Assembly (NCBI GenBank): GCA_003563005.1
Contig: PWTC01000001.1
Coordinates: 1 to 47,008, forward strand
Reading direction: 5' to 3'
From: Candidatus Acetothermia bacterium
Lineage (GTDB): Bacteria > Bipolaricaulota > Bipolaricaulia > Bipolaricaulales > Bipolaricaulaceae
Length of the DNA: 47,008 bases
The notes beneath the pieces are model-generated. The model had not been told where the DNA came from and ran no database searches. It worked only from the letters and a program-made list of their open reading frames with translations. The translations under genes were made by a program, and so were the position numbers. Positions within the stretch are counted from its first letter, which is position 1. Each line of letters begins with the position of its first letter. This document shows positions 30,687-42,191 of this stretch, piece by piece.

Positions 30687-31979
30687 ATGAGGAACGTGCT
30701 GCTAGCTGTACTGGCGTTGTGCATTGTGCCGGCGATTGCCGCGGAGATCACGTTTGAGCCCATCCCACGTATAGACGGGGCGTTTGTCGTAGTCTTAGAA
30801 GGGGTAGAAGGAATCGGCCAGATCACGCTGCTGAATCTGGACACCGATGAGGTGATCAGAGTCGCGCTGAGACGCGAGGGAGACCAGCTGATCACGGAGT
30901 CGATCGCGGCGCGGCGGACATGCCGGTGCACCGACTACCCGGCCGGCATCGAGCTGGTCGTCGAGGCCGGGCACACGCTCGTTGCGGCGACGACGCTTGG
31001 TGGGGGGCTATCGACTGCGGTTGTAGTGGGGCCTCGCACCCCGCGTCCGGGGGAACCTGTGCTGGCACTCCGCGCAGGGGAGGAGTTCGCCTCTGACTCT
31101 CCGGCTGACAGAGCCCTTCGCACGGGGATCCATCTGATCGAAGTTCATGACGCCCAGGAGGACACCACCTGCGGCCATGACGAGGTCCGTGTGCTCGGGG
31201 TCTTGGGGAGCGAGGCGTTCTATGTGACACTGCAGGAGGCAGGCGCCACGAGCGGTCGGTTCACCTGCCCGGTTCGCCTTGACATCGTGCCGGATGGCGT
31301 CGAACTGCGGGTTGTCCTCTCGGATCTTCAAGGAGGCATCCTTGCTGATGTCGTCTGGCACTCGGGCATCGAGCTTGCGCTACACTACGGTGACCAAGAG
31401 CTCGTCAGGGCCGTGGAACCGCTTACGGTCCTGCTCTCGCACGAAGACCTCGTGCTTCCGGTCGACTGCAAGGGGGATCTCTGCGTCCGCAAGCCGGAGT
31501 CGTTCGACGAGGTCCGCTGGTACATAGGGGCACAGCTCGAAGCGCATGACGGCGCTTGTCTGCGGCTCGGCGGCTTCAGGGCACATCCCCCAACGATCGT
31601 GACCGTGCAGGTGCGTACGGGGATCGCATGGGGAACAGCCTGGATCGACTACGAGATCATCCCTCGCGCCTCCGTGAGTTTTGTGCCGGCTGACATGGAA
31701 AGGCCTGCCGATACGCCGTGGTCGCTAAGCTCCCCCCTCCGCGTACGCCTCGAGCATGTGCATGGGGATCCTGCCCCACGTGTGCTGGTTGGGCGACTCG
31801 GAGGCACACAGGTGATGGAGCTCGAACTTGCTCCGGTCGAGAGAGAACGTGGGGTGTTCCAGAGCGCCCCTCTGACGCCATGTGGGTTGAACGCGGGCCC
31901 AGGGGATGTCATCTACGTGCAGTACAAGGATCCCACGTGTCACCATAACCATACCCATCGTACCCTGCCCATCCGGTGA
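30687..31979 (+). CDS. Exported Cys-rich protein with repeated beta modules
   Basis: Function unknown. The 430-aa protein has a signal peptide (MRNVLLAVLALCIVPAIAA before EITFEP). At least two stretches, about residues 150-220 and 350-420, follow the pattern hydrophobic strand, E.xx.L.E, xxGxF, then GD.I.V.Y.D, a module common in large bacterial and archaeal surface proteins. There are several Cys residues (TCRC, TCGHDE, FTCPV, DCKGDLC, GACL) and the C-terminus is His-rich (DPTCHHNHTHRTLPIR), which could bind metal. It is followed by another exported protein with a GTGATG overlap. Likely periplasmic or cell-surface. Confidence 0.75.
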   Translation: MRNVLLAVLALCIVPAIAAEITFEPIPRIDGAFVVVLEGVEGIGQITLLNLDTDEVIRVALRREGDQLITESIAARRTCRCTDYPAGIELVVEAGHTLVAATTLGGGLSTAVVVGPRTPRPGEPVLALRAGEEFASDSPADRALRTGIHLIEVHDAQEDTTCGHDEVRVLGVLGSEAFYVTLQEAGATSGRFTCPVRLDIVPDGVELRVVLSDLQGGILADVVWHSGIELALHYGDQELVRAVEPLTVLLSHEDLVLPVDCKGDLCVRKPESFDEVRWYIGAQLEAHDGACLRLGGFRAHPPTIVTVQVRTGIAWGTAWIDYEIIPRASVSFVPADMERPADTPWSLSSPLRVRLEHVHGDPAPRVLVGRLGGTQVMELELAPVERERGVFQSAPLTPCGLNAGPGDVIYVQYKDPTCHHNHTHRTLPIR

Positions 31980-32959
31980 TGCGCGGCATAGGGCTTGCGG
32001 TGATGGTCCTGCTGCAAGGGGTGCAGGCCGTCGCTTTCGAGCCTGTGCACGTGGTCTACTTCGCGTCCGAGCCGGTGACGGTGCGCATGGACCGGGAGTG
32101 CGCGCCGGAGGTCCGATTCCAAGGCGAGCTGTACCGGAGTGTCTGGGACGTTCAACAGAGTCGTGAGGGTTACACATGGTCGACTGAGCTTCCCGCCGAT
32201 GCCCCTTTGGGGATCTGGCAGGTGTGCGCCCCCGGGGGAGCCTGCGTCTCCATCTTGCGGGTGGCCGACGATCGTGCCTTGCTCAAGGTGGAAGCGGAGC
32301 TTGGGGCGGAGATCTCGGTGGGAGGGCAGGTTCGGCTGACCGATGCCCTCGGGCGTGCCTGGTTCGTGCTCGCTCCGGGTTCCTACCGAGCCGCGGCGTG
32401 GGTCCCGGCGAAGACAGATCCCATGGAGCGACAGGTCGATCTCCGCCAAGGGAAGCGCACGCTCCTGAGCCTGGTGGCGCTCAGTGCGGATGCCTCGTCA
32501 ACCCATGCGTTGCCGGGAAGCACGGTGACGCTGACGGCTGGAGTGATATTTCCTGGAGCGATCCTTCCCCAACTCTCGCTGACCGCGCCCGATGGCTGGA
32601 CGATCGAGCGGCTTCCGATCTCGGCGGCCCGCCGAGGATGCTGGAGTGTCGTGGTGCCGGAGGGTTTCCTGGGGACGGGCGTGTTCGAAGTGAAGGCTCC
32701 TGAGCTCGGGCTAGAGGCGCGGGCGGAGCTGACTGTGCGCCCCTGGCTTCCACCTGAGGTGGTGATCGCGCACTGGGATCTCGAACGTGATGAGCTGGAC
32801 CTAGCCTCCCCCGGTGCGATCACCTACGAGCGCCTGCTCTGGGCGTCTGCCTGGATCGGCCACGAGCTTCCGCACACAGGAAGAACACTTGCGCGCGCCG
32901 AGGTCGAAGAGCTTGCCCGTTCCTGGGCAGATGACGAAGAGAGAGCGACTCGGCCATGA
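31976..32959 (+). CDS. Exported protein of unknown function
   Basis: A 327-aa product with signal peptide (MMRGIGLAVMVLLQGVQAVA before FEPVH). A domain near residues 100-160 (LGAEISVGGQVRLTDALGRAWFVLAPGSYRAAAWV) resembles a carboxypeptidase-regulatory/beta-sandwich fold, and residues 175-255 look like a second sandwich ending before PWLPPEVV. The last 60 residues (IAHWDLERDELDLAS... to the end) are helical and Trp-rich. The GTG at 31976 or ATG at 31979 are both possible starts; both overlap the upstream stop. Presumably works with the upstream exported protein. Confidence 0.72.
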   Translation: MMRGIGLAVMVLLQGVQAVAFEPVHVVYFASEPVTVRMDRECAPEVRFQGELYRSVWDVQQSREGYTWSTELPADAPLGIWQVCAPGGACVSILRVADDRALLKVEAELGAEISVGGQVRLTDALGRAWFVLAPGSYRAAAWVPAKTDPMERQVDLRQGKRTLLSLVALSADASSTHALPGSTVTLTAGVIFPGAILPQLSLTAPDGWTIERLPISAARRGCWSVVVPEGFLGTGVFEVKAPELGLEARAELTVRPWLPPEVVIAHWDLERDELDLASPGAITYERLLWASAWIGHELPHTGRTLARAEVEELARSWADDEERATRP

Positions 32960-33799: not shown

Positions 33800-33837
33800 C
33801 GCCATCTGTACGTGCTGTTATCGAGGTGAACGAGAGA

Positions 33838-35136
33838 GTGACAACAGGATCGCAAGGTCTGATACTGTTCCTTCTGCTTCTGCTTTCAGCGTACTTCTCA
33901 GGCTCGGAGACCGCAGTCACGTCATTGTCGGAGCTGCGTGTTCGCCATCTGATCGATCGTCATCCCAAGAAGAAGCGTGCGCTCGAGCACCTGCTGAGTG
34001 AGCCGAACGACTTCATCACATGCCTACTCATCTTGAACAACCTGGTGAACGTGGGCGCGTCGGCGATGGCTACGCTTCTGTTCTTGCGCCTGCTCCCGGC
34101 GGGGTTGTCTCAATACGTCTCGGCGCTCATTACCACGGTGATCATGACCGCAACGCTGCTCATCTTCGGTGAGATCACGCCCAAGACCGTGGCCAAGAAC
34201 CGGGCCGAGGGCGTGACCTTGGCCGTGGTGGGGACGGTGTGGCGGCTGACCTCATGGTTGCATCCGCTGGTGGCAGGCCTCCGCCGGATCTCCGCGCTCA
34301 TCCTGCGGCCGCTGGGCGACCGCGTGCTTGTGCGCGAGGAGTCGGGCGTGTCCGAGGATCACCTCATCACGCTGATCGAGCAGGGGGAAGAACGGGGTGT
34401 GATCGCCGCACAAGACGGAGACATGATCCGACGGGTGCTGGCGCTCGACGAGACGACCGCGGAGGACGTCATGGTCCCCCGCACGGACATGCAGGCCATC
34501 GAGGTGAACACACCCCTTGAGGACGTGCTCAAGTTCGTCATCGAGGACGGGCACTCCCGTTACCCTGTCTACGAGAACGACCGAGACAACGTGCTGGGCC
34601 TTCTGTACGTCAAGGATCTGCTGTCGCTGATGGCCAACGGGGAGGAAGGCCTCCGGGAGCTGCGCGATATCCTGCGCCCTGTCTACTACGCCCCGGTGAC
34701 CAAGCCGAGCAACATGCTCCTTGGGGAGTTCCAGCGCGAGCGGGTTCACATGGCGGTGGTGGTGGACGAGTACGGTGGCGTGGCCGGGATCGTCACCCTG
34801 GAGGACATCCTCGAGGAGATCGTGGGGGAGATTGAAGACGAGTTCGACGAGCCCAGAACAGGTAAGCTGATAAGGCGGCTTTCGGCCACCGAGGCCATCG
34901 TCGACGGTGATGCCGAGGTACGGGTGGTCGATCACATGTTGGATCTGGAGCTCTCGGACAACGAAGCGGTAACCGTGGCCGGGTTGATCTTGGAGGAGCT
35001 TGGCGACATCCCTGAACCCGGAGCGCGCGTGCGCCTGGGGCGTGCGGTGTTCGAGGTCGAGGAGGCCACGGAGCGAGAGATCCTCTCTGTGAGGATCACC
35101 GTGCTCCCCAAGGAAGCCGACATGTACGACGAGTGA
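33838..35136 (+). CDS. CNNM/CorC-family transporter-like protein with CBS pair
   Basis: A 432-aa membrane protein of the HlyC/CorC (CNNM) family, linked to Mg2+ or other divalent-ion efflux in characterised members. The CNNM membrane domain opens with LLSAYFSGSETAVTSL, followed by EPNDFITCLLILNNLVNV and FGEITPKTVAKN. A CBS pair spans about residues 185-310 (EDVMVPRTDMQAI, HSRYPVYEND, VVVDEYGGVAGIVTLEDILEEIVGEIEDE). A CorC_HlyC domain forms the C-terminus. GTG 33838 is preferred because AGGTGA lies 8 bases before it; an in-frame GTG at 33826 lacks a ribosome site. Confidence 0.9.
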   Translation: MTTGSQGLILFLLLLLSAYFSGSETAVTSLSELRVRHLIDRHPKKKRALEHLLSEPNDFITCLLILNNLVNVGASAMATLLFLRLLPAGLSQYVSALITTVIMTATLLIFGEITPKTVAKNRAEGVTLAVVGTVWRLTSWLHPLVAGLRRISALILRPLGDRVLVREESGVSEDHLITLIEQGEERGVIAAQDGDMIRRVLALDETTAEDVMVPRTDMQAIEVNTPLEDVLKFVIEDGHSRYPVYENDRDNVLGLLYVKDLLSLMANGEEGLRELRDILRPVYYAPVTKPSNMLLGEFQRERVHMAVVVDEYGGVAGIVTLEDILEEIVGEIEDEFDEPRTGKLIRRLSATEAIVDGDAEVRVVDHMLDLELSDNEAVTVAGLILEELGDIPEPGARVRLGRAVFEVEEATEREILSVRITVLPKEADMYDE

Positions 35137-35147
35137 GGGGGTACCCG

Positions 35148-37799
35148 ATGCGCAAGCTGAAGTCTCTCAGCGCAGTTCTTTTTTTGTTCGCCGTCTCCGC
35201 GACGGCCCAGCACGAGATCGACGTGCGGTTCGATCCTGAGACTCATGTGTTGTACGGTGTTCAGGTCATCGCTTGGGAGGAGACGCCTGCGGTAGCATGG
35301 TTCTCGCTCCCGGCGAACCTCGATCGAGAGCCGAATCCCTATCTAGGCGGGCGGGCCATCGATCAGAGGTATGCCTGGGGCTTCGATCCGGCCTGGACGG
35401 AGATCGACGCGGTGTCCTGGGTGAACGGCGAGGACGTAACAGAGCTCGAATACGCGCTCTTGCCTGCTGCGAAGACCACCCAGACGTACTCGTTGCAGGA
35501 TGGCCTGTTGCGCATCGATCTTCCTGCGACGCCGGGAAAACTGAAGATCGAGTTCCGTACACGCTTTCCTCACCTTCGCTATGGTGAGCCGGGACGCATC
35601 GGCAGGATCTACCAGTGGAGGTTTGGCTGGCATCCGATGCCTGTGCTTCCTGCCGACGGCGAGTACTGGCCGCACGTGATGCTCGCGCATGACTACCACG
35701 TCCGACTCGCCCTTCCTGAAGGGTGGGAGGCCATACTGCCGGGCACTGTCGAACGTTGGGAGGAAGAGGACTTGGTGATCTACGGAACCACGTTCGGCCA
35801 GCCTGTACGGTCGGTGATGCTTCTCTTCGCCCCGGAGGGCACGTATACCTCGGCGGTGCTGCCTTCAAGGTCGGTCGACATCGAGGTTGCCGCCCTGGCC
35901 GACCACGAGGACAAGCTACGGGCTATGGGCTCGTACGTCGAGGAGATCCTTACCTACTACGGAGAGCGCTACGGCCCGTATCCGTTCGAGCGAATCCTGC
36001 TTGTCGAGCATCCCTCCCAAGTGGGGATCGCGTACGCTGCCGATGGTGTGGCCTGCATGCCGCAGTGGCTGTTCCGGCGGGCAGATCTGACCGCGCCGGG
36101 TGTAATGAGCAGGTACGGGCGGTTCATCCTCGCCCATGAACTCGCCCATCAGTGGTGGGGCCTGGGCATCGGGGTGGACCTCGACGCGGAGAACTGGCTC
36201 TCGGAGGCGTTCAGTCACTATTTGGCCGTCCGCTGGTACGAGGACCGGTACGGCGAGGAGGGTGGCAATGTCTTCAAGATGGAGCGGCCGGGGCTGGGGG
36301 CGGCCATGGTCAACTCCATGATCGGGTTCGTCAACCTGCGAGAGCATCTCGTGGAACTACCCTATCTGAGCACGGTGTTCCTCGGCTTCGACGAGGCCAT
36401 CGTCAAGCCGACCTCCGAAGTCGATTATCTCCAGGCCAGCGGCGTGAGGCTGTACGAGAAGGGGTACCTCGTCCTGCGGGCGCTGGGAGGGCTGGTGGGG
36501 GAGGAAGCGTTGGATGAAGCCCTGCAGCTTGCACACGAGAGGTTCCGAGGTGCGTGGCTCACGGTGGACGCCTTTCAGGGGCTGGTCGAGGAGACGTCGG
36601 AGCAGGAGCTGTCGGACTTCTTCGACCACTGGGTGTGGGGCGATGCCTGGGCCGACTACCGGGTGGACCGCCTTGTCCGGGCACGTGACGGGGAACTCCA
36701 TGTGACGGAGGCGCATGTCTCCCGTGCTGGAAGGGGGTTTCTCCCGGTGGTCGTTGAGGCACGGGGAGCCGAGGGCGAGCGGGCGCGTGTCGTCTGGGGG
36801 CCTGACGACCCCGACGAGCATGTGATCGTCTTCGAGACGGACTTTCCGGTTCGCCGCGTCTCGCTAGATCCCGATCACCATGTGCTCGATGTCGACCGGC
36901 TCAACAACCACATGCCGCGCAGGTTCGTGGTGGCCATGGAGCGCGCTGAGCTTCCCCTGGACGCTTATCTGATCGAGGCTGATCCCATGACGCAAGGGCT
37001 CTCGCTTCGTTATCTGGACAGATTTGGATGGGAGATCCATCCGCAGTTCCAGGCAGCAGCGGCATGGATCCGCTACGGGCGAGAGGCAACCTTGTCTGGC
37101 TGGGCCCAGGTGACGGACACGCTCGTCGGCCAGGTGTCGTTCACACGGCACCTCTGGTCGACCCCCGCTCTGGGCTCCACGGGGACCTACTGGACGCACT
37201 CGGGGGACCTCACGCTCACCGTGGCCCGGATGCCGACGCTCGCCTTTGAGCTCTCGGCACAGTGGCAGGACCTCATCAGGCGTGGGGAGGCCTTTGCGGG
37301 TTCGCTTCTCTATCTTTCCGGCTACGGGGGCCGTGTTGTGGGCGCAGCACTCACCGAAACGCGGTTGTGGCCGCACACCTACCTGCAGTTCATCGCGCGC
37401 GGGGGGATGGCCGATGAGGGGCTACCCGACCCGTTCAAGTTCCGTCTCTCGGAGTTCAACAGCATCGGGACGTCCCCCATCGCGCCTCCGGCGCCGATCG
37501 GACGCAACACAGGCTCCGTTACTGCTTCCCTGTGGCTCCCCGAGGCTGAGCCCGACTACATGCTCGGAGGCATTGCGCTTGTCGACCAGGTTCTCGGTCG
37601 GGGGTATGCGACGGCCGGAAAGGTGTGGGACGAGCCGGGCGACTGGAGCACCGCACCGCTCTACCTCGAGGCGGGTGGCGAGCTGTGGATCGGGTTGGAT
37701 GCTCTGGGGGGGTTGATGCGCCTTTATCTGGTTCTGGGGGCGGCGTGGCCGATTTCCCCGAGCGGGCCCGGGGTGATCTACCTCGGGTTCGGGATGTAG
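35148..37799 (+). CDS. Exported M1-type metallopeptidase with barrel-like C-terminus
   Basis: An 883-aa protein with a signal peptide (MRKLKSLSAVLFLFAVSATA). The gluzincin site is HELAHQWWG with His330, Glu331 and His334, and the third ligand Glu353 in NWLSEAFSHY, the HEXXH-X18-E spacing of M1 aminopeptidases. The typical GxMEN exopeptidase motif is not recognisable, so exact activity is open. After about residue 520 come beta-sandwich and then alternating amphipathic strands (TYWTHSGDLTLTVARMP, VVGAALTETRLWPHTYLQFIARGG) ending in VIYLGFGM, which resemble outer-membrane beta-barrel strands. The ATG 35148 has GAGGGGGT upstream; the frame also opens at GTG 35133. Confidence 0.85.
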   Translation: MRKLKSLSAVLFLFAVSATAQHEIDVRFDPETHVLYGVQVIAWEETPAVAWFSLPANLDREPNPYLGGRAIDQRYAWGFDPAWTEIDAVSWVNGEDVTELEYALLPAAKTTQTYSLQDGLLRIDLPATPGKLKIEFRTRFPHLRYGEPGRIGRIYQWRFGWHPMPVLPADGEYWPHVMLAHDYHVRLALPEGWEAILPGTVERWEEEDLVIYGTTFGQPVRSVMLLFAPEGTYTSAVLPSRSVDIEVAALADHEDKLRAMGSYVEEILTYYGERYGPYPFERILLVEHPSQVGIAYAADGVACMPQWLFRRADLTAPGVMSRYGRFILAHELAHQWWGLGIGVDLDAENWLSEAFSHYLAVRWYEDRYGEEGGNVFKMERPGLGAAMVNSMIGFVNLREHLVELPYLSTVFLGFDEAIVKPTSEVDYLQASGVRLYEKGYLVLRALGGLVGEEALDEALQLAHERFRGAWLTVDAFQGLVEETSEQELSDFFDHWVWGDAWADYRVDRLVRARDGELHVTEAHVSRAGRGFLPVVVEARGAEGERARVVWGPDDPDEHVIVFETDFPVRRVSLDPDHHVLDVDRLNNHMPRRFVVAMERAELPLDAYLIEADPMTQGLSLRYLDRFGWEIHPQFQAAAAWIRYGREATLSGWAQVTDTLVGQVSFTRHLWSTPALGSTGTYWTHSGDLTLTVARMPTLAFELSAQWQDLIRRGEAFAGSLLYLSGYGGRVVGAALTETRLWPHTYLQFIARGGMADEGLPDPFKFRLSEFNSIGTSPIAPPAPIGRNTGSVTASLWLPEAEPDYMLGGIALVDQVLGRGYATAGKVWDEPGDWSTAPLYLEAGGELWIGLDALGGLMRLYLVLGAAWPISPSGPGVIYLGFGM

Positions 37800-37819
37800 C
37801 CCGCAGGAGACGTGACGGC

Positions 37820-40165
37820 ATGCGAGTATCCAAACGATGGTTGAACGAGTATGTGGACACGAACGACATCGGCGATGTCGAACTCGCTGAGCGCTTGACG
37901 CTGGCGGGCATCGAGGTCGAGTCGGTCGAGGCGGTGCAGGACTACCCCGGTGTGGTCGTGGGCCGGGTTCTGTCTGTGGAGGAGCATCCCAACGCAGACC
38001 GACTGAGGGTATGCCAGGTCCAGGCTGGAAGTGGCGAGGGAGGCTCCCCACAGGTCGTCTGTGGGGCCCCCAACGTGCGACCTGGGCTGATGGCACCGTT
38101 CGCCTTGCCTGGGGCACAGCTGCCGGGCGGCGAGGTGACGCGCACCAAGTTGCGTGGAGTGGACAGCTGCGGGATGCTGCTTTCCCGCGCTGAACTGGGG
38201 CTTGAGGCTCGTTCAGAAGGCCTGTGGGAGCTTCCGGAGGGATTGCTGCCCGGCCAGACTCTGTCCGAACTGCTTGAGGCACCGGATACGGTGTTCGACC
38301 TCAAGATCACCTCCAACCGCCCTGATCTTCTTGGCCTCCACGGCGTGGCGCGGGAGGTGGCCGTCCTCCTGGACCGGCCGCTGCGTGAGCCCCTGCTCGA
38401 CTATCCGGAAAGTTCACCGGCTGCGGCGGAGTTCTTGGAGCTCGTTGTCGAGGTGCCGGAGGAGTGCCCTCGGTACATCGCGCGGGTGATTCGTGGCCTC
38501 TCGGACGGGCACGCGCCGCTGTGGATGGCCGCGCGACTGACCAAGGCCGGCATGCGGCCCGTGTCGCTCGTGGTGGACATCACCAACTACACGATGCTTG
38601 AGCTTGGACATCCCTTGCATGCGTTCGACCGGGAACGCCTTCCGGGGAGACGTATCGGTGTGCGGCGTGCCCGACAGGGGGAGCGGTTGCGCACCCTGGA
38701 CGGTGTCGAACGAGAGCTTGGGCCGGAGGTGCTGCTCATCACCGCCGATGACGCGCCGATTGCGCTTGCGGGGGTGATGGGAGGGGAGGCGACCGAGATG
38801 GGGGCCCAGTCGTCGTCGCTCGTCCTCGAGGCGGCGTGCTTCGACCCGATCTGCGTGCGCCGTTCTGCGAGGGCGGTTGGGCTGCGAAGCGAGGCGTCGC
38901 TTCGCTTCGAACGCGGCCTTTCTCCTGAAGCGGCCGATCGGGCGTCACGGCGCTGCTGCGCCCTGTTGGCCGAGCTCGGGGGAGGGGTGATCGCTTCTGG
39001 TGAGGAGGATGCCTACCCGCGCCCCGCGGATCGGCGCATCGTGAAGCTGCGGCGCGGTCGGGTGTCCGAAGTGGTGGGTGCGGAGATCTCCGAGGAAGAG
39101 AATGCGCGCGTTCTTGGGGCGCTGGGCCTCAAGATGCGCCCTGGATTGGACGGGTGGACTGTGGAGGTGCCCTGGTGGCGGGGTGATCTCGAACGGGAGA
39201 TCGACCTCGTGGAGGAGGTAGCCCGCGTATACGGGTTCCACCGGATTGGCCCCGTCCCACCACGCGTGCCGCCTGCACTTGGCGGCAAGGACGATGTGGA
39301 GCGTTACATAGACCGGGCACGCAGCGTGTGCGCTTCGCTGGGGCTGGACGAGGCGATCACCTGGCCCCTCGCGCCGGAAGCGGAAGCCGAGGTGCTCATT
39401 CGCAACCCCATGGCACGCGGCGAGGAAGGGCTGCGTGCGTCGCTCCTTCCGGGGCTCATGAAGGTCGTGCGCACGACGTTCGAGGCGCAGGCCCCTGGGG
39501 CAGCCCTCTTCGAAGTGGGACGTGTGTTCCTTTCGCGTGGCGAGGAGATCGTCGAGCGCGAGCGGCTCGGCGTCGTGCTCGCCGGACGTTCCGGCCTTCC
39601 TCTAGCGGGCAAGGAGATCTACAAACTGGAGGAAGCCAAGGGACTGCTCGATGCGCTTCTTGCGGCCCTGCGCGTTCCCGAGCTTGAGGTCGCCCCGTGC
39701 GCGGACGTCCGGCTGCACCCAGGGCGCCGGGCGGCGCTCACGTTGGACGGTGAGAGCATCGGCTGGATCGGCGAGGTGGCGCCGGAACTGTGTGCGGAGC
39801 TGCCGGGCAGACGGAGGGTCTTCGCGTTCGAGCTTGAGCTTGCGCCGCTTCTCTCCGCTGTGCAGTCGGTCGATGTGCGCCCCGTCCCCAGTTTTCCCGT
39901 CGCCAAGCGCGATCTCTCGCTTGTCGCGCCGCGGCAGGTCGCGGAGGCGACTGTGCGAGCGGCTGTGCGCTCCGAGCCACTCGTCGAGCAGTGCGTGCTC
40001 TACGACCTCTACGAGGGGGAAGGAATGGAACCGGGTGTGCGGAGCCTTACGTACGAGATCACGTTCCGCCATCCCGAGCGGACGCTCTCCTCAGAAGAGG
40101 TCGAGGGCGCGATCGGGCGCATCGTGGAGCGGCTCAGGCAGCACGACGTGAGGCTGCGGACCTAG
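37820..40165 (+). CDS. pheT: Phenylalanyl-tRNA synthetase beta subunit
   Basis: A 781-aa subunit of the alpha2-beta2 enzyme. Domains in order: B1 (MRVSKRWLNEYVD), the tRNA-binding EMAP-like domain (VGRVLSVEEHPNADRLRVCQV, about residues 45-150), B3/B4 with editing-site residues (GVMGGEATEMG), B5, the catalytic-like core, and a C-terminal FDX-ACB domain (FPVAKRDLSLVAPRQV to the end). AGGAGA at 37804-37809 supports ATG 37820; the open frame upstream is a shadow of the peptidase gene. The usual upstream partner pheS is absent here. Confidence 0.96.
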   Translation: MRVSKRWLNEYVDTNDIGDVELAERLTLAGIEVESVEAVQDYPGVVVGRVLSVEEHPNADRLRVCQVQAGSGEGGSPQVVCGAPNVRPGLMAPFALPGAQLPGGEVTRTKLRGVDSCGMLLSRAELGLEARSEGLWELPEGLLPGQTLSELLEAPDTVFDLKITSNRPDLLGLHGVAREVAVLLDRPLREPLLDYPESSPAAAEFLELVVEVPEECPRYIARVIRGLSDGHAPLWMAARLTKAGMRPVSLVVDITNYTMLELGHPLHAFDRERLPGRRIGVRRARQGERLRTLDGVERELGPEVLLITADDAPIALAGVMGGEATEMGAQSSSLVLEAACFDPICVRRSARAVGLRSEASLRFERGLSPEAADRASRRCCALLAELGGGVIASGEEDAYPRPADRRIVKLRRGRVSEVVGAEISEEENARVLGALGLKMRPGLDGWTVEVPWWRGDLEREIDLVEEVARVYGFHRIGPVPPRVPPALGGKDDVERYIDRARSVCASLGLDEAITWPLAPEAEAEVLIRNPMARGEEGLRASLLPGLMKVVRTTFEAQAPGAALFEVGRVFLSRGEEIVERERLGVVLAGRSGLPLAGKEIYKLEEAKGLLDALLAALRVPELEVAPCADVRLHPGRRAALTLDGESIGWIGEVAPELCAELPGRRRVFAFELELAPLLSAVQSVDVRPVPSFPVAKRDLSLVAPRQVAEATVRAAVRSEPLVEQCVLYDLYEGEGMEPGVRSLTYEITFRHPERTLSSEEVEGAIGRIVERLRQHDVRLRT

Positions 40166-40591
40166 ATGGAAAGAACTGCTGTCAGCGACAGCCCCGAGGA
40201 CACGGCACGCCTCGGCGAGGAGCTGGCCGCTCGCCTGCGCTGCGGCGATGTGGTGGCGCTGGTGGGGGATCTTGGGGCCGGCAAGACCACGTTTGTCCAG
40301 GGGATGGCTCGAGGGCTGTTCGTTTCCGAGGCGGTCCTCTCGCCGAGCTATGTGCTGGCACGTCGCTACGACGGCCGGCTTCCGCTTCATCACCTCGACG
40401 CCTACCGGATCGGCGAACCGCGGGAACTCATCGAAGCCGGCTTGAGGGAGGTCCTCCCGAGCGAGGACGGGATCACCGTTGTCGAGTGGGCCGACCGCGT
40501 CGCCGAGCTTCTTCCCTCGGCGACTGTCTGGGTAGAGCTGACGCTGCTCGAGGGCGAGCGCCGCCGCATCGCCATCACCGCGCCCGCCTGA
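40166..40591 (+). CDS. tsaE: tRNA t6A biosynthesis ATPase TsaE
   Basis: A P-loop protein of 141 aa that assists TsaB-TsaD in making threonylcarbamoyl-A37. It has the Walker A GDLGAGKTTFVQG near residues 34-46, SPSYVLARRY and HHLDAYRI (Walker B-like), and the conserved VEWADRV. The ATG directly abuts the pheT stop. With miaA elsewhere in the window it is one of two A37-modification genes. Confidence 0.94.
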   Translation: MERTAVSDSPEDTARLGEELAARLRCGDVVALVGDLGAGKTTFVQGMARGLFVSEAVLSPSYVLARRYDGRLPLHHLDAYRIGEPRELIEAGLREVLPSEDGITVVEWADRVAELLPSATVWVELTLLEGERRRIAITAPA

Positions 40592-41069: not shown

Positions 41070-42191
41070 ATGAAGGCCCGGCGAGGGTTGGCCGTGCTGC
41101 TTGCGTTCTGGGTCGGGGTCGTGGGATGTGCGGTCACGATCACACCGCTTCCCACCGAGCCGGGGTACCCTCACTACCTCGAAGCGGTCGTGGCACTCCT
41201 GGAGCGGGCCGAGTCCGAGGTGCTCGTCATGATCTCCGATCTTCGCTACTACGGGCCCGAGGAGCCTGCCAGCGCCCCTGCGGCCGCGCTCGCCGTCGCG
41301 GCGGCGCGAGGATTGGAGGTCCGCGCACTCGTGAACCTCTGGCGCGATCCCTGGCCCTCACAGCAGCGCGCACGTGAGCTTCTAGAAGAGGCAGGTGGCC
41401 AGTTCCGCTGGTGGCACGACCCCGATGCTTCGCTCCACGCCAAGGCGCTGGTCGTAGACGGCCGTTGGGTGCTCGTCGGGTCGAGCCATTGGACGTGGAA
41501 CGCGCTACTGGAAAGCGTTCAGGTCGATCTTCTGATCGAATGCGAGGAGCTCGCGGCGCATTTCTCGGATCTGTTCGAGCTCCTCTGGGAAGGAGAGGGT
41601 CCGATCGAGGTCGAGCTCTCGCCCCCACCCTGGCCCAGACCGTCGATGATCCCGCTCCCTCAGCCCCCTCGAAGCGAACTCCACGTGGAGGTTTTGTCCG
41701 ACCTCATCGCCGGTGCAGAGTTCACCGTGGAGGCGCTGCTCTACAGGATGGCCCGGTACCCAGCTGCCTGGGACAGCCCCTCGAACCGACTGGTCGATGC
41801 GCTTAGCGGCGCGGCGGGGCGTGGTGTCCACGTGCGCGTCGTGCTCGAGGGCGGCGAGGACTTCATGGACGAGACGACCGTGCGCGCCAACCGGGAAGCC
41901 GCGGCCTACCTGTTCCTTTCTGGGGTGGACGCACGCCTCGACCGGCCAGGGGAGACGATGCACGCCAAGTGCCTGATCCTCGACGGGCGCCACGTGGTCG
42001 TGACTTCTGCCAACTGGTCCTACTACTCGCTGGCCCGCCACGCAGAGGCTGGCGTGGTCCTGCTCGACGTGCCGGAGGTCGCTGCCCAGCTTCAGGTGCT
42101 GTTCGAGCGTGTCTGGGAACGCGCGTCGGGGCTCTCTTCGGGCGCGATGAGGACGGAGAGGTCAGTCTGTACACTGGCCGGGCCGGGCTGA
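41070..42191 (+). CDS. Phospholipase D-like lipoprotein
   Basis: A 373-aa protein with a lipoprotein signal: basic MKARR, hydrophobic core and lipobox VGVVGC with Cys20 as the lipidation site. It has two PLD/HKD repeats, each with an HxKxxxxD motif: LHAKALVVDGRWVLVGSSHWTW near residue 125 and MHAKCLILDGRHVVVTSANWSY near residue 297. This is the pattern of PLD-like nucleases and phospholipases. As an envelope lipoprotein it could act on lipids or on DNA outside the cytoplasm; the substrate is not determined. Confidence 0.85.
   Translation: MKARRGLAVLLAFWVGVVGCAVTITPLPTEPGYPHYLEAVVALLERAESEVLVMISDLRYYGPEEPASAPAAALAVAAARGLEVRALVNLWRDPWPSQQRARELLEEAGGQFRWWHDPDASLHAKALVVDGRWVLVGSSHWTWNALLESVQVDLLIECEELAAHFSDLFELLWEGEGPIEVELSPPPWPRPSMIPLPQPPRSELHVEVLSDLIAGAEFTVEALLYRMARYPAAWDSPSNRLVDALSGAAGRGVHVRVVLEGGEDFMDETTVRANREAAAYLFLSGVDARLDRPGETMHAKCLILDGRHVVVTSANWSYYSLARHAEAGVVLLDVPEVAAQLQVLFERVWERASGLSSGAMRTERSVCTLAGPG

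Follow-up and report, generated by a model that had tools for sequence, protein, structure and literature searches.

The window analysed here, a stretch of 47,008 nucleotides from a Bipolaricaulota MAG (1.40 Mb, 88% complete), contains an open reading frame on the forward strand (35133–37799) that raises the question of what an M1-type peptidase does with an additional C-terminal domain. A first-pass annotation, made from the letters of the window, had proposed that the protein is a peptidase fused to an outer-membrane beta-barrel and that it faces either the surface or the periplasm. With ATG 35148 as the likely start, the frame encodes a protein of 883 aa (hereafter P0001), on which the following features were placed.

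35148..35210, + strand: Sec signal peptide, residues ~1–21 (MRKLKSLSAVLFLFAVSATAQ), read by eye from the translation
35205..36914, + strand: M1 gluzincin unit, residues ~20–589, placed from the PF01433 match, the extent of the matches to M1 relatives and the model strands
36024..36047, + strand: degenerate GxMEN site, residues 293–300 (GIAYAADG), from alignment columns
36135..36149, + strand: HELAH zinc-binding motif, residues 330–334, from the 95-row alignment
36204..36206, + strand: third zinc ligand, E353, from the 95-row alignment
36453..36455, + strand: Y436 of YEKG, from the 95-row alignment
36915..37796, + strand: putative C-terminal Omp85-type beta-barrel domain, residues 590–883, from HHalign, VIA-align and the strands in two low-confidence models
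37434..37469, + strand: counterpart of the BamA VRG region, residues 763–774 (FKFRLSEFNSIG), from the HHalign alignment, with the motif itself degenerate

The N-terminus, read by eye from the translation, is a Sec-type signal peptide without a lipobox. Pfam placed Peptidase_M1 (PF01433) at residues 266–495 with 49.3 bits, well over the gathering score of 27.7, and the family was also matched by all four members of set A1; at E 1, no other Pfam family was found on P0001, including POTRA and patatin domains. The M1 unit consists of an N-terminal beta domain, a catalytic domain and terminal strands at residues 503–575, where the model has six strands that close the unit (pLDDT mostly 64–85 in this part). 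The long matches to M1 relatives of other phyla mostly end at residues 575–600, apart from a few tblastn segments at 604–635, and thus the extra domain starts at a clean domain border. None of 10 tails of other M1 relatives looked barrel-like by eye. The first-pass annotation had described C-terminal strands running from about residue 520 to VIYLGFGM; the chain does end in VIYLGFGM, but the start has to be moved, since residues 503–575 belong to the M1 unit and the putative barrel spans residues ~590–883 (294 aa, with approximately 15–16 strands estimated by eye from two low-confidence models). Omp85 barrels are closed and have 16 strands.

For the nature of this domain, a profile of 92 C-terminal sequences, each of at least 230 residues, was set against one of 28 BamA barrels from the same phylum in HHalign. 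When columns with less than 70% occupancy were removed, the two profiles aligned over 207 columns (57–290 on 79–294) with a score of 45.2, a probability of 81 and a P of 1.2e-5, and the alignment was colinear and reached near both C-termini. The M1 profile and the reversed profile, used as controls, scored 16.4 and 20.2, respectively, while 200 parity-keeping block shuffles and 200 free shuffles reached at most 29.7 and 25.9, respectively, with none of the 400 above 30. Without the last 30 columns the BamA match dropped to a score of 28.8 (P 0.003), inside the shuffle range, so that a large share of it comes from the C-terminal strands. The untrimmed comparison in the other direction was weaker (probability 49, P 1.8e-4). 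In untrimmed HHalign, where the real score was 44.1, parity-keeping shuffles at 134–141, higher than the real score, occurred in 1 of 150 and 3 of 300 cases; the three among the 300 align only 6, 34 and 39 columns to the very last column, and we took these three to be an artefact of gap-rich columns shuffled into the alignment end.

In the HHalign alignment, FKFRLSEFNSIG falls on the stretch that carries the VRG motif in BamA (loop L6), and the motif itself is lost there. Five strands follow the VRG region in BamA, and the domain model has five main strands, plus a short one of 3 residues, downstream of FKFRLSEFNSIG. Pfam was run singly on 77 of the domains (set A3, i.e., the window and 76 others, omitting 15 of the 92 rows, some of them near-duplicates and the others the most divergent). 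None of the 77 matched PF01103 (Omp85) at E 1, and the term ‘Omp85-type’ therefore denotes a distant relative rather than a filed member; the autotransporter families were likewise unmatched among the 77, and the scan returned only four stray families, one member each, none of them Omp85 (best E 0.013). The C-terminal profile against PDB sequences gave a single match (E 0.09), which was taken for chance.

Outside the phylum, two proteins were matched. Among 50 genomes, the C-terminal profile found three assigned to Bipolaricaulota/Acetothermia, each at E 1.2e-83 or below, and a single one of the other 47 (E 6.6e-4), the latter match lying in a PD40-propeller protein with Pfam Omp85 over the cut-off (33.4 bits). 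In 297 genomes of the phylum of this propeller protein, two proteins passed E 0.001, near the level of chance, namely the propeller protein itself and a TPR-like protein whose end has Omp85 as its best Pfam family at 18.2 bits, below the cut-off. A fusion with an M1 unit was found in none of the 47 and 297 genomes, which are overlapping sets, a small sample, and were searched with the barrel profile only. Two scans of viral contigs found no further relatives.

AlphaFold was run on four sequences, both for the whole protein and for the C-terminal domain alone, and the mean pLDDT values were 46.3 and 47.0, respectively, so that these models count as weak evidence. Foldseek returned nothing at E <=0.001, and its best 50 rows were nearly all outer-membrane barrels by title. 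When the list was re-examined with VIA-align (Z 9.5–12.0), all 50 rows shown were transmembrane beta-barrels, of which one was designed and another belongs to a mitochondrial complex. Frequent among them, at 7–15% identity, were BamA and TamA, such as Deinococcus radiodurans BamA (Z 11.6, rmsd 4.5, 159 aligned, 15% identity, model 115–298 on 645–844) and Escherichia coli TamA (Z 9.8, rmsd 5.6, 160 aligned). Autotransporter domains tied with BamA within 1 Z (BrkA, Z 11.8; NalP, Z 11.6), and the BamA rows fell into two registers, with the best of them (7r1v) on the first half of the barrel and most others on the second half. The structural comparison thus backs a barrel, and only the sequence profile backs Omp85. 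Taken as profile evidence, the match supports the C-terminal domain as a homologue of Omp85/BamA-type barrels.

Could the domain instead be soluble and beta-rich, which would make P0001 a free periplasmic or secreted peptidase? The low model confidence, the missing Pfam Omp85 match and the dependence of the profile match on the last strands would all fit such a protein, as would the strand alternation, which is no stronger than in a soluble M1 beta domain (z of 3.4 for the C-terminal domain, compared with 3.6 for the first M1 domain, which is soluble, and 6.6 for BamA) and does not discriminate. The coupling analysis (effective number of sequences, 65) was uninformative, its top pairs being long-range and forming no hairpin ladders. 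We nevertheless consider a soluble domain very improbable, because no shuffle reached the trimmed BamA match, the structural rows shown were transmembrane barrels throughout, both matches outside the phylum lie in proteins with an Omp85 Pfam end (one above and one below the cut-off), and the domain is less acidic than the M1 unit (9.0 and 14.6% acidic residues, respectively; 10.8% in BamA barrels). The proposed fusion of a peptidase with an outer-membrane barrel is therefore supported by the BamA profile match and the structural rows, and no soluble beta-sandwich C-terminus was found.

A barrel of this kind might also serve for surface display, with the M1 unit passing through or alongside it as in an autotransporter and digesting environmental proteins for uptake. 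The tie of the BrkA and NalP beta-domains with BamA in VIA-align agrees with this, as do the tails of M1 relatives in other phyla, which by eye resemble secretion or anchoring modules. As for classical autotransporters, the structural rows include their 12-strand beta-domains, obtained with a low-confidence model. Display seems unlikely to us all the same: the sequence link goes to BamA, where the N-terminal domains lie on the periplasmic side, and a barrel of ~290 residues would have to handle a bulky folded passenger of ~570. In the related enzyme fusion PlpD (patatin-Omp85), moreover, the lipase domain has been found to be periplasmic (PMC11116518). Of the two orientations named in the first-pass annotation, the periplasm-facing one is thus the likelier.

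The active site was compared in an alignment of 95 rows, from which matches with E >1e-40 and duplicate loci were dropped and which includes the second copies of two genomes (L227 and L228). The first-pass annotation had read HEXXH-X18-E in the sequence, and this is exact: H330-E-L-A-H334 is followed by 18 residues and E353. H330 and E331 were kept in 90 rows (one X, four gaps), H334 and E353 in 91 rows each (four gaps each), and Y436, which we take to be the catalytic Tyr position of M1, in 92 (three gaps). Apart from the one X, the zinc ligands, the general-base Glu (E331) and the Tyr thus never vary in rows without a gap at these positions.

The GxMEN motif behaved differently. In M1 aminopeptidases it binds the free N-terminus of the substrate, and with its Glu it marks the M1 aminopeptidase as an exopeptidase; it is absent from P0001 and its orthologues. 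In agreement with the earlier observation that the motif was not visible in P0001, the column of its Glu (residue 297) held A in 55, T in 27 and S in 7 of the 95 rows, with six gaps, i.e., one of these three residues in 89 of the 89 rows with a letter. One row had a Glu at the Met position of the motif (residue 296). Residue 297 was Glu in all 15 rows of motif-keeping relatives in a joint alignment, in which some sequences occur twice (P0002 is L237), and by eye the Glu was kept in 29 of 35 other M1 relatives, a set that includes the second M1 of the same genome; three of the 29 are members of the same phylum without a barrel. Its loss therefore marks the family of P0001 but is not unique to it. 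Two residues on, residue 299 was D in 83 rows, E in 5 and P in 1 (six gaps), so that 88 of the 89 rows have an acid there. Asp299 would lie on the same face as the lost Glu, provided that the strand continues to this point.

The family is spread throughout the phylum. The nearest named relatives of P0001 (L003–L005) are from Bipolaricaulota/Acetothermia and are 48–51% identical over residues 23–881 or more. The whole protein was matched in 59 of 60 genomes, including its own, in some only as contig-end fragments, while a search with just the C-terminal domain gave matches in 94 of 100 genomes of the phylum and in 37 of the 38 with a completeness of 90% or more and a contamination of no more than 5%. 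The genes on either side were assigned by Pfam as follows.

33826..35136, + strand: upstream neighbour, CNNM/CBS/CorC_HlyC protein
37820..40165, + strand: downstream neighbour, pheT, with the start placed by eye
40166–40591, + strand: tsaE, following pheT

CNNM lay upstream in all 30 loci, including that of the window, and in 17 of 20 loci of other families, and pheT lay downstream in 28 of the 30 (the other two break off inside the gene at a contig end) and in 16 of the 20. The order CNNM/CorC, M1-barrel, pheT, tsaE (33826–40591, + strand) is thus widely kept in the phylum, and the functions of these genes look unrelated. The near-universal presence and the kept order give the appearance of a vertically kept core gene. 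Further along the same strand, the frame at 41070–42191 has two PLD-like domains (PF13091) and, by eye, a lipoprotein-like N-terminus (VVGC), and possibly encodes an exported phospholipase D-like lipoprotein. Upstream, two adjacent sizeable frames (30687–31979 and 31976–32959, + strand) had no Pfam match at E 0.001.

The first-pass annotation had suggested looking for BamA and LPS genes. The genome of the window has an Omp85 gene, at a contig edge, and counting this genome such a gene was found in 29 of the 30 searched; a monoderm genome without BamA was accordingly not what we found. LpxC was not found in this 88%-complete genome, nor was TamB, which was sought there only. The genome thus appears to specify an outer membrane without LPS and without a detected TamB. 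The missing LpxC fits the first closed genome of the phylum, which was described as lacking LPS genes and as perhaps having a Thermotoga-like outer membrane, with the existence of a true outer membrane in Bipolaricaulota left open (PMC6092417). The present finding supports a true one.

A second family of the same phylum (P0002, i.e., L237, with L238 and L239) also joins an M1 unit to a barrel-like C-terminal domain of ~300 aa. It occurs in 8 of 100 genomes (match of at least 600 residues, at least 41% identity), where six of the eight reach the C-terminus and two are interrupted frames. The C-terminal domain of P0002 (six sequences) matched the BamA barrels over 121 columns (score 32.7, P 9e-4) and the C-terminal domain of P0001 over 91 columns (score 37.8, P 1.1e-4); neither match was reached by any of 150 shuffles. 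All eight sequences seen keep the exopeptidase Glu, as (G/F/I)A(M/V)EY. The P0002 family therefore differs from that of P0001 in being rarer, in keeping the Glu and in a far diverged barrel sequence.

From these observations we consider P0001 to be probably an outer-membrane-anchored zinc peptidase, with an Omp85-type anchor and a periplasm-facing M1 unit that does not act as a standard aminopeptidase. The protein would be exported via Sec, and BamA would fold its C-terminal ~290 residues into an Omp85-type barrel, so that the M1 unit would stand where BamA has its POTRA domains and would stay on the periplasmic face. Since HEXXH, the Glu ligand and the Tyr are intact, cleavage of peptide bonds is expected; since the GxMEN Glu is lost, ordinary one-residue aminopeptidase activity is not. 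The unit may be an endopeptidase, or it may still be an exopeptidase in which the conserved Asp299 holds the N-terminus of the substrate one step further away. The near-universal presence and fixed gene place suggest a housekeeping role, which most simply would be to break down damaged proteins of the envelope, or else peptides at the outer membrane; this role is a guess.

The same features could be read in terms of a translocase or assembly factor of the Omp85 type. Here the M1 unit would take over from POTRA and would handle substrates more than cleave them, and the protein would stand in the place of TamA where TamB was not detected. The Omp85 homology, the near-universal and syntenic occurrence and the TamB result for this genome would be compatible with such a factor. 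We regard it as highly doubtful, because the VRG region is degenerate, the strictly kept catalytic residues would be needless for a mere scaffold, and the search for TamB covered a single genome, 88% complete. Extending the preferred reading, a membrane-bound peptidase, to the whole phylum, we tentatively suggest an Omp85-type class with an active M1-derived module and a changed hold on the substrate (Glu lost, Asp299 gained), possibly a periplasmic, outer-membrane-bound endopeptidase or dipeptidyl-type peptidase of an LPS-less envelope. If this is true, a phylum whose outer membrane apparently lacks LPS would gain a core protease fixed to that membrane. The family is also a clear example from nature of an M1 enzyme in which the zinc site was kept and the exopeptidase anchor lost.

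Among known systems, the nearest solved structures by sequence were 6a8z (E 2.1e-5) and 3q7j (E 2e-4). The M1 aminopeptidases (PepN, tricorn F3) and the zinc metalloprotease 6a8z have PF01433, HEXXH-X18-E and the catalytic Tyr in common with P0001, whereas P0001 lacks the GxMEN Glu and is fused to a barrel. The envelope proteases BepA and DegP serve in periplasmic protein quality control, the kind of role that P0001 may have, and belong to peptidase families other than M1. The literature searched, whose coverage excludes most subscription journals, held no account of an M1 or aminopeptidase fusion with Omp85 or a barrel. Words beginning with ‘peptidase’ or ‘aminopeptidase’ do not occur in the main text of PMC4104836, and the enzyme-Omp85 fusions described comprise a lipase (PlpD) and a class with a phosphoesterase-type domain, besides propeller fusions (PMC11116518, PMC4104836). 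PlpD and FplA (type Vd) resemble P0001 in carrying an N-terminal enzyme on a C-terminal Omp85-type barrel, and differ in that P0001 has an M1 peptidase instead of a patatin lipase, with no POTRA detected. A further comparison concerns PF00149 (Pfam name Metallophos), a phosphoesterase family and, unlike the M1 unit of P0001, not a peptidase. The ‘Metallo’ class, for which periplasmic quality control was suggested, is tied to PF00149 (PMC4104836); the published class name (metalloprotease), which rests on PF00149, seems to be a mislabel. Members of the Omp85 superfamily are described as having at least one POTRA domain (PMC11116518), and classes without POTRA exist (PMC4104836). Heinz and Lithgow (2014) distinguished ten Omp85/TpsB subfamilies, some of them with non-POTRA N-termini (WD40-Omp85, ‘Metallo’ and noNterm; PMC4104836), and P0001 resembles these non-POTRA subfamilies, which likewise put a different N-terminal domain in front of a barrel of this type.
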